Shown: piece after piece, positions 63,058 to 64,000 of the stretch
Numbering within the stretch: position 1 is the first letter of the stretch
How the letters are laid out: the number at the start of each line of letters is the position of its first letter
NCBI RefSeq assembly: GCF_001613795.1
Contig: NZ_LPVZ01000001.1
Location: 62,001 to 126,000 of the forward strand
DNA from: Thalassospira sp. MCCC 1A01148
GTDB lineage: Bacteria > Pseudomonadota > Alphaproteobacteria > Rhodospirillales > Thalassospiraceae
Length of the DNA: 64,000 nucleotides
Direction: 5' to 3'
Program-made: the position numbers and the translations under genes
The notes under the pieces: model-generated
What the model was told of the DNA's origin: nothing
What the model saw: only the letters and a program-made list of their open reading frames with translations
Databases searched by the model: none

Positions 63058-63131
63058 GCGGGTGTAGTTCAATGGTAGAACAGCAGCTTCCCAAGCTGCA
63101 TACGAGGGTTCGATTCCCTTCACCCGCTCCA
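63058..63131 (+). tRNA. tRNA-Gly (CCC anticodon)
   Basis: The cloverleaf is complete: acceptor GCGGGTG with CACCCGC, D arm with TAGTTCAATGGTAGAAC, anticodon stem GCAGC/GCTGC around TTCCCAA, and T arm GAGGGTTCGATTCCCTT. The discriminator T and an encoded CCA end it at 63131. The anticodon CCC reads GGG glycine codons. Confidence 0.93.
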
Positions 63132-63165: not shown

Positions 63166-63750
63166 TCAGTCTGCTGCGCATGATGTAGCGGTTATGCATG
63201 TCCGTTCGCATGTCGACATGCCCCCGTCCGGGCAACAGGCGATCATTCGGTTTCGCAGGCGTTTGCGCGCGCGTTGAATGCGTGATTTGACGGTTGGCAG
63301 CGCAAGGTTGTTCTGGGTTGCAAAGTCGATCTGGCGGGTGCGGTTGAGGTCAATGGCGCGCAGAATATTCTGATCACCGGCAGCCATTGTCGAGATGATC
63401 CCGGTCAGACAATCGTTCAGACCATTAACATCCGCATCATCATCAGTTGTTCGGTTCAAATTGTTTGGTGTTTCTGTTGTCGGGTCTGATTGCAGGGCGT
63501 CAAGCGCACTGCGTTCGCGACTTTTCTTGCGATAGTAATCAACAAGTTTGCTGCGTGCGGTGGCATAAATCCATGCCGATGGATTGGATGCGATGGCAAG
63601 GCTTGATCTGTTGCGAATGATGGCTTCGAGAATATCTGAGACAACGTCATCAACCGCGTCACGCGGGACGCGACTTTGAACAAATCTGTGCAGGCCCTTT
63701 TGCAGGGCCTGCCAATCAGAAGATGTGTCGGAAACGGGGGCGAATTTCAT
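63166..63750 (-). CDS. ECF sigma factor with a Cys-rich C-terminal tail (SigZ-like)
   Basis: A 194-residue ECF sigma factor. Region 2 is VDDVVSDILEAIIRNRS and region 2.4 NPSAWIYATARSKLVDYYRK. Region 4 has the HTH around FATQNNLALPTVKSRIQRAR. The tail after region 4 has six Cys in about 20 residues (ACCPDGGMSTCERTCITATS then C). The ATG at 63750 is chosen; it lies 4 bases after the stop of an ArsI/CadI-type lyase gene. Metal or metalloid sensing by the tail is an inference. No anti-sigma gene is visible. Confidence 0.8.
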   Translation of the reverse strand: MKFAPVSDTSSDWQALQKGLHRFVQSRVPRDAVDDVVSDILEAIIRNRSSLAIASNPSAWIYATARSKLVDYYRKKSRERSALDALQSDPTTETPNNLNRTTDDDADVNGLNDCLTGIISTMAAGDQNILRAIDLNRTRQIDFATQNNLALPTVKSRIQRARKRLRNRMIACCPDGGMSTCERTCITATSCAAD

Positions 63751-63754
63751 GGCG

Positions 63755-64000
63755 TCAGGCGCAACATACCTGTTGAGTTTCTGATTCCTTGCCGGGCTGT
63801 TGGCCGCAACACCCCGCACTTGATGAACCGGTTTCATTTTGAGCGCTGTCGGGATCATCATCAAGGATGCGATACCATTCCCACGCCAGACCGTCTGGTT
63901 CCTTTGTCCAGAATTTTGATTGTTTGGCGTGACAGCAACCTGTCTCAGCGACATCGCTTGTGCTCAGATTGCCCGCATGCAGGCGATCTGATGCCGCGTC
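63755..64000 (-). CDS. ArsI/CadI-type glyoxalase-fold lyase, C-terminus (cut by window edge)
   Basis: The last 81 codons of a gene that enters from the right edge. The end of a VOC-domain protein is recognisable in ETGCCHAKQSKFWTKEPDGL followed by AWEWYRILDD. These contain the Cys pair, the Trp-x-x-Pro-Asp-Gly and the C-terminal Trp-Glu-Trp-Tyr expected of ArsI/CadI, which cleave C-As bonds of methyl or aryl arsenicals. The tail continues with further Cys pairs (SAGCCGQQ and QVCCA). Its stop is 4 bases before the sigma factor ATG, so the two share a transcript. The N-terminal half and any arsR neighbour are outside the window. Confidence 0.75.
   Translation of the reverse strand, partial: DAASDRLHAGNLSTSDVAETGCCHAKQSKFWTKEPDGLAWEWYRILDDDPDSAQNETGSSSAGCCGQQPGKESETQQVCCA

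Follow-up and report, generated by a model that had tools for sequence, protein, structure and literature searches.

A cysteine-tailed SigZ-clade sigma factor as candidate controller of an ArsI-type lyase gene in Thalassospira

At the right edge of the window (the whole stretch of 64,000 nucleotides analysed from Thalassospira sp. MCCC 1A01148), an ArsI/CadI-type lyase gene and an ECF sigma factor gene form a two-gene unit on the minus strand (Table 1). With moderate confidence, this unit is read as a self-contained, autoregulated module in which a sigma factor of the SigZ clade, set by its own cysteines, is switched on by metal(loid) binding. In the mechanism proposed, the sigma factor would direct RNA polymerase to one promoter of its own genome, located before arsI, and would thereby transcribe both arsI and itself. 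No anti-sigma gene adjoins it, and control would rest with the cysteines of the protein itself: Cys114 in the linker, Cys172/173 and the other tail cysteines would bind a thiol-reactive metal(loid), and this binding would switch the sigma factor on. Methylarsenite or another trivalent organoarsenical is the most likely ligand. ArsI would then cleave the C-As bond and remove the signal. The gene pair, the clade, the promoter, the co-occurrence of promoter and sigma factor, the cysteine signature and the neighbours of the family were obtained by computation; from these we infer that the sigma factor reads the promoter, that its cysteines bind the signal, what the signal is, and that binding activates rather than inhibits.

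Table 1. Features of the arsI-sigma unit and its immediate surroundings, in coordinates of the window and of its extension to the right
Feature	Position	Strand	Remarks
ECF sigma factor gene, SigZ clade	63166..63750	-	194 aa, stop included in coordinates; ORF and start
Cys-rich C-terminal tail, residues 172-194	63169..63237	-	alignment; low AlphaFold2 confidence, likely disordered
Cys114 codon, sigma2-sigma4 linker region	63409..63411	-	conserved across SigZ clade
4-nt gap (CGCC), arsI stop to sigma ATG	63751..63754	-	sequence read
ArsI/CadI-type lyase gene, 3' part	63755..64000	-	runs beyond window to 64213; 152 aa in total
Conserved promoter TGCATCTTTT-N12-CGTCTT	64250-64277 (L002:2250-2277)	-	upstream of arsI, outside window
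tRNA-Gly(CCC)	63058..63131	+	convergent neighbour of sigma gene; locus marker
Nuclease-like ORF (by eye)	64310-65068	- (same strand as arsI)	just upstream of arsI; no Pfam match

The initial annotation had placed the sigma gene four bases past the lyase stop and a tRNA-Gly next to the pair, and both placements are confirmed. Extension of the sequence to the right located the start of the lyase gene and no ArsR-type gene there, and an anti-sigma gene on that side, which the same annotation had regarded as counter-evidence, was not found up to ~10 kb right of the window. In agreement with its remark that no anti-sigma gene is near, neither an anti-sigma nor an ArsR-type gene lies beside arsI and sigma among the genes scanned (a stretch starting at ~58.9 kb of the window and reaching ~10 kb past its right end); the families matched among these flanking genes are GNAT, TPR, phosphoribosyltransferase, GSDH, TrkH, DUF3012, semialdehyde dehydrogenase and GGDEF. 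Elsewhere in the genome, on contig C19, two ArsR-like genes belong to an acr3 cluster that has no motif site, no ArsM over cut-off was found in the genome, and none of its three PF03773 permeases has a motif site; thus, in this organism, ArsR appears to handle inorganic arsenic and the sigma factor to handle arsI. Both the missing regulator genes beside the unit and the remote, motif-free ArsR-like genes weigh against an improbable alternative, namely that the sigma factor senses nothing and is a positive-feedback amplifier under another regulator or under an anti-sigma factor encoded elsewhere, its cysteines serving in folding. The cluster on C19 (~343462-346350 of G000:C19; L259, L271) comprises acr3, two divergent ArsR-like genes and a permease, with GAPDH-like and MFS-like ORFs recognized by eye.

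The window lyase scores 171.3 bits against NF041414, where the cut-off is 116, and the extra CC pairs at its C-terminus are invariant in 11/11 aligned genus homologues, so the ArsI-like C-terminus with extra CC pairs described initially is upheld. Gln4, His60, Glu112 and the vicinal pair Cys93-Cys94 are likewise invariant in 11/11 genus homologues, and the ligand residues align with solved chains, the solved relatives being matched at E 8e-30. These residues match those reported for ArsI of Thermomonospora curvata and Bacillus MD1, the accessible text on the T. curvata enzyme naming Gln/His/Glu metal ligands and vicinal cysteines (PMC12607644). Judged from its sequence, the window lyase probably breaks down toxic methylated arsenic. 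It differs from ArsI in setting: the accessible text of an arsenic-gene survey reports ArsI always inside ars operons (PMC6205960), whereas the window arsI stands alone with a sigma factor. As NF041414 pools ArsI and CadI in one NCBI family, the match also suits a very improbable reading in which the lyase is the cadmium-linked CadI rather than ArsI and the sigma factor cysteines bind Zn(II)/Cd(II), structurally or as signal, in the manner of CorE2; permease neighbours matching the SO_0444 Cu/Zn efflux model, below its cut-off, lean the same way, but the neighbours of the relatives include ArsM, ArsH, ACR3, ArsA, ArsD and ArsI.

The best NCBIfam matches of the sigma factor are the SigZ models NF007215 and TIGR02959, both under cut-off. 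Against TIGR02959 it reaches about 89 bits (89.0-89.5), short of the SigZ cut-off of 168.65, and because ordinary ECF sigma factors score nearly as high on the SigZ model, the score alone is indecisive. Pfam recovers Sigma70_r2 over cut-off and Sigma70_r4_2 under it, with region 2 at about residues 12-88 and region 4 at about residues 104-173, and AlphaFold2 (12 sequences; mean pLDDT 73, pTM 0.40) models the protein as two helical domains followed by a tail whose pLDDT is mostly <50. In a tree of 81 proteins (36 SigZ at 117 bits or more, 14 Thalassospira, 6 enterobacterial plasmid, L108 and 24 control ECFs), the window sigma factor falls on the SigZ side of a 100/100 branch with the 24 control ECFs opposite. 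L108, which was taken as a 25th control, also falls on the SigZ side, on a very long branch flagged as unsure, and has both of the signature cysteines discussed below; it is a plasmid sigma factor of Paracoccus sediminicola (L108:4869-5510), and its listed neighbours include no arsenic gene.

As the window protein lies within the clade but below the SigZ cut-off and without the CorE motifs, it is called a diverged SigZ-clade sigma factor that may work like CorE. With SigZ (TIGR02959/NF007215) it shares both signature cysteines, the same promoter motif and similar neighbours; it differs in its tail, which reads CC-X7-C-X3-C-X5-C where SigZ tails carry CC and then, ~20 residues on, C-X2-C/CC, or NCQVR..VCCF, so that the CC is retained and the remainder remodelled. 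Locus L038, from a different family of this order, offers a natural intermediate: its arsI is followed by a sigma factor scoring 153 bits to SigZ and ending in a CC...CC tail.

The tail of the window sigma factor holds five cysteines (C172, C173, C181, C185 and C191) and not the six counted initially, the sixth conserved cysteine, C114, sitting in the linker region. Across 14 genus sequences the five are retained in 14, 14, 13, 13 and 13, respectively, in tails whose length and letters change, and because most other tail columns vary, the alignment indicates that this conservation exceeds chance. Such retention while most of the tail drifts also speaks against cysteines of the folding type in a sigma factor that merely amplifies, an idea to which one genome lends some weight: in L015 (G005) the ordered cysteine tail is gone, with one CC and a later CC left, and arsI and the promoter are retained. 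The sigma factor of L008 is without the last tail cysteine. Both losses count against the module reading.

A two-cysteine signature, defined in the present analysis rather than taken from a published criterion, extends these observations beyond the genus and is present in the window sigma factor. In an alignment of 90 proteins (65 SigZ-type and 25 controls), Cys114, in the linker at the start of region 4, is a cysteine in 64/65 SigZ-type proteins and 1/25 controls, and Cys173, right after region 4, in 65/65 and 2/25, respectively; L108 is one control in each count, and without it they become 0 and 1 of 24. Other tail cysteines differ by lineage in the clade. At least two cysteines occur within the last 45 residues in 35/36 SigZ proteins vs 1/24 control ECFs, a count that is partly circular since the SigZ profile may contain cysteines, the Thalassospira and plasmid proteins not having been chosen by profile. 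The initial annotation proposed sensing by the sigma factor through its own tail; with the linker cysteine equally conserved, a sensor confined to the tail is too narrow a view. Two near-universal cysteines are sufficient for a disulfide, which suits an unlikely alternative in which the sigma factor is a thiol-redox or electrophile sensor, working by a Cys114-Cys173 disulfide or by electrophile modification, with arsenicals as one trigger and a regulon that restores thiols and removes thiol poisons; the three to five cysteines found within the last 45 residues of 33/36 SigZ tails are, however, more than a disulfide needs.

Control of an ECF sigma factor by its own cysteines has precedents, and although the initial annotation's one-component design with a link to arsI is strengthened by the relatives, its description of that design as unusual is weakened by CorE, CorE2 and OrbS. 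According to the accessible text of two papers, CorE and CorE2 are regulated by a linker CXC and a Cys-rich C-terminal extension (PMC8999054, PMC9023288). These Myxococcus xanthus proteins (former ECF44, now ECF238 or unclassified) resemble the window sigma factor, in what those texts state, in the Cys-rich extension, the linker cysteine and the metal-linked targets. They differ in the linker, where the window protein has a single cysteine (C114) and not the CXC given in the accessible definition (PMC8999054), in the tail, which in CorE2 is CC-X3-C-X2-C-X1-C, and in the metals, Cu or Cd/Zn there compared to an arsenic link here; membership of the window protein in CorE was dropped, the CXC being absent and the cysteine spacing different. 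The response of CorE2 to Cd(II)/Zn(II) through that tail, as the accessible text has it (PMC9023288), is a further point in favour of Zn(II)/Cd(II) binding. OrbS of Burkholderia cenocepacia also has a C-terminal cysteine cluster, whose last spacings, C-X3-C-X5-C, are those of the window tail, but in the accessible text it is an iron-starvation sigma factor inhibited by Fe(II), for which no arsenic link is stated (PMC9023288). Among the literature matches listed, titles and abstracts naming SigZ give no function for it, and, within openly available papers, none links SigZ or another sigma factor to arsI or ars promoters; the word "sigma" is absent from the arsenic-gene survey (PMC6205960).

The preferred module reading is carried further by the promoter. 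The motif TGCATCYTTT-N12-CGTCTT stands before arsI in 12/12 aligned Thalassospira loci (one with a single change), within an otherwise variable spacer, and in 14/14 sigma-bearing Thalassospira genomes, 13 of them exact; in the genome of the window, the arsI site is the only motif site at one mismatch or fewer. The sigma factor very likely reads TGCATCTTTT-N12-CGTCTT before arsI, going by this distribution and that described below. A degenerate form, TGCRTCYTTT-N12-CGTYTW, was derived from the distant arsI loci L110, L111 and L129 and four plasmid loci. The comparison was drawn from 398 Pseudomonadota genomes, of which the 36 best SigZ matches (35 genomes) were set against 24 control loci, other ECFs chosen from the next matches outside Thalassospira; loci were fetched with ~6 kb each side where the contig allowed, several SigZ contigs being short.

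At one mismatch or fewer, the motif is found in 19/36 SigZ loci and 0/24 control ECF loci, compared to a mean of 0.15 sites over 20 rounds of shuffled loci; leaving out L110, L111 and L129, which had been seen before the degenerate form was written, the count is 16/33 (p 4e-5). At two mismatches or fewer it is 25/36 vs 3/24. The 19 sites precede arsI (3), arsM (1), GST genes (2), PF03773-type permeases (12) and a cytochrome c'-like gene (1, L139), the permeases having been recognized in some cases by profile and in the remainder by alignment or likeness; those PF03773 permeases scanned score below both the SaoE and the Cu/Zn efflux cut-offs, and their substrate is uncertain, which counts against the preferred reading. 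In L129 the arsI frame is interrupted near its start.

Over whole genomes, the exact motif occurs in 22/398, namely 15/38 sigma-bearing genomes vs 7/360 others (p 3e-12), where sigma-bearing means a SigZ match of at least 117 bits or the Thalassospira sigma factor, and where a SigZ-clade sigma factor under 117 bits, like that of the window, would escape detection among the 360. Without the Thalassospira carriers the figures are 13/35 vs 7/360 (p 1e-10). A reversed pattern used as chance control is found exactly in 2/398 genomes and, at one mismatch or fewer, in 7/60 genomes compared to 23/60 for the motif. The exact sites of the seven other genomes comprise L199-L203, which have no comparable target, and L215 and L217, both on short contigs and possibly genuine, where the motif precedes an ORF resembling TolC or a permease. 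The order offers a parallel view: among ten of its loci matching the lyase profile (L038-L047, seven over cut-off), L038-L040 (two from Thalassospira, and L038 from another family) have both sigma factor and motif, and L041-L047 have neither within 1.5 kb.

Motif sites also occur, at one mismatch or fewer, in 7/15 sigma-less genus genomes. In the five loci read (L177, L178, L184, L190 and L197, the last being a second site in the sigma-bearing G015), the motif is antisense inside one conserved ORF, exact in four and with one mismatch in L178; these five copies within conserved Thalassospira coding sequence are apparently coincidence. Other sites occur in G006, G021, G027, G044 and G047, and additional ones in G003, G012, G016 and G017. 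In two Bacteroidota loci no site is present at two mismatches or fewer (L256, L257); the sigma factor of L256 is beside thioredoxin and permease genes, and that of L257 has arsC/acr3 genes at a distance of ~2 kb. In Rhodococcus L252 the sole site carries 2 mismatches and lacks a clear target. In Priestia, a motif-like site with 2 mismatches (L251:3927-3954) is divergent from sigZ and precedes an aldo/keto reductase gene; a protein that resembles this enzyme by eye is encoded ahead of SigZ in L113 as well.

The genes around SigZ lend a second line of support. Arsenic-type genes, sought by tblastn with ArsI, ArsP-type permease, ACR3, ArsC and ArsR as queries (E <= 1e-5, half or more of the query covered), are near 22/36 SigZ loci and 0/24 control ECF loci (Fisher p 3e-7), counts which are not independent as 18/36 SigZ loci come from one family. 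The 14/36 loci without such a match, a point against the preferred reading, include some on short contigs and L112, which has an adjoining arsM, a gene outside the query set. The initial annotation had held that homologues lacking the cysteine tail and a conserved ars link would tell against it; the cysteine tail is kept, and the arsenic link is found in many, not all, loci. Direct neighbours of SigZ include ArsP_1, GST, HTH_20 (ArsR-type), ArsM and one thioredoxin-like protein, and no anti-sigma family is seen beside SigZ among 25 families listed of 73 (Pfam, +1/-1 ORFs, 36 loci, 70 proteins), while NrsF and NepR are seen among 25 families listed of 34 for the 24 control ECF loci (48 proteins); neighbour ORFs came from a simple ORF picker, which missed arsI in L129. 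The GST-like proteins encoded right after SigZ in L113, L114, L115, L117 and L122 end in a CC pair. A terminal CC pair is unusual for GSTs.

What the sigma factor responds to is suggested by its putative targets. ArsI, ArsH, ArsP and ArsM form the organoarsenical set in the accessible text of the survey (PMC6205960), and members of this set, as well as GST and glutathione genes, are found repeatedly either downstream of the motif or next to the sigma factor; the signal is probably trivalent organoarsenicals. The 17 exact sites in the 15 sigma-bearing genomes precede arsI (5), permease-type genes (6), PatB C-S lyase genes (2), and one each of arsM, glutathione synthase, outer-membrane efflux and cytochrome c'-like genes. 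Because these other targets are C-S lyases and glutathione synthase, general thiol stress fits as well, and the PatB sites (two genomes), the glutathione synthase site (one), the GST genes beside sigma in several loci and the thioredoxin-like neighbour all suit a thiol-redox sensor, against which the motif also precedes arsI and arsM. The sites before PatB genes and before the glutathione synthase gene, which is of eukaryote type (L205, L206, L219; G402, G230), point to thiol supply as part of a putative SigZ regulon.

The metalloid-responsive reading is held more tentatively for the family as a whole. It is plausible, though well short of established, that SigZ proteins are widespread one-component metalloid-sensing sigma factors whose bipartite cysteine site, made up of the linker cysteine and the tail, would bind trivalent organoarsenicals or arsenite directly and whose single conserved motif, TGCATCyTTT-N12-CGTCTT, would control the detoxification of organoarsenicals and thiol detoxification in carriers as diverse as marine alphaproteobacteria and the plasmids of clinical enterobacteria. 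In Ideonella dechloratans the order is HTH gene, arsI, arsC, arsC, acr3, sigma, exact motif, permease, thioredoxin and arsA; in Sulfuricella denitrificans it is acr3, permease, arsM, arsC, sigma, motif (1 mismatch) and TolC/RND efflux; and Citrobacter amalonaticus Y19 has an ars cluster, the sigma factor and three motif copies at one mismatch or fewer. Klebsiella and Salmonella plasmids carry an arsR-type gene, arsH, sigma and the motif (1 mismatch), followed by arsD (L105, L106, L109) and arsA (L106); ArsR could control the sigma factor there, which is a point for the amplifier alternative. On the named plasmids L092, L105, L106, L107, L109, L254, L255 and L258, the sigma factor is in or beside ars genes with the motif behind it. 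In Citrobacter L093 the sigma factor is followed by the exact motif, a permease and thioredoxin, ars genes not being among those listed. Arsenic genes are not adjacent to SigZ in Priestia, Rhodococcus and Vibrio; in Vibrio cortegadensis a GST gene follows a variant of the motif at a distance of 2 kb from sigZ.

DNA resembling the sigma-arsD stretch of L105 is present in 1,262/72,556 plasmid records, and DNA resembling its sigma gene in 40/5,426 E. coli genomes. In L105, L106, L107, L109 and L255, all enterobacterial plasmids, the sigma factor has a SigZ-type tail with three cysteines, and a copy of the motif follows its gene. In the accessible text of a plasmid transcriptome study, the gene that separates arsH from arsD is called a hypothetical protein (PMC6286996). 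If the proposal is true, sigma factors join arsenic regulation, a gene is explained that more than 1,200 records of enterobacterial plasmids carry in their ars operons, and the little-understood SigZ family gains a likely job; the promoter, the target set and the cysteine signature make SigZ function directly testable, and a compact biosensor for organoarsenicals could be made from the arsI-sigma-promoter cassette.

A homologue scan of a named collection found 11 loci, of which ten bear the title Thalassospira and the other that of a Rhodospirillales MAG; this was too narrow for the family question, for which profile searches were therefore used. Within the genus, a close sigma factor is present in 14/29 genomes searched (own included), and the lyase gene is directly upstream of it in 14/14 carriers, with a gap of 4-6 nt; in the order sample, the 14 genus genomes listed divide into 8 with the lyase, all sigma carriers, and 6 without it, none of them carriers. 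A tRNA-Gly is beside the sigma gene in 12/14 carriers, L004 and L015 being the exceptions. In four sigma-less species (L225, L231, L232, L234) the GSDH-family gene, tRNA-Gly and nuclease-like gene follow with nothing in between, and because the site is empty there, the arsI-sigma unit is a presence/absence cassette; in three further sigma-less loci (L228, L235, L238) the fetched stretch contains the nuclease-like and TrkH genes but lacks tRNA-Gly. The suggestion of a tRNA insertion site made initially is not supported in the form of integrase-type mobile insertion at tRNA-Gly: despite the empty site, the 16 kb of L002 read contain no second copy of the 3' end of the tRNA, and the unit adjoins the same tRNA in 12/14 carriers. 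The sigma factor of L004 (L004:1495-2061, G017) looks mosaic by eye, its N-terminal half resembling one genus group and its C-terminal half that of the window, which suggests recombination inside the gene.
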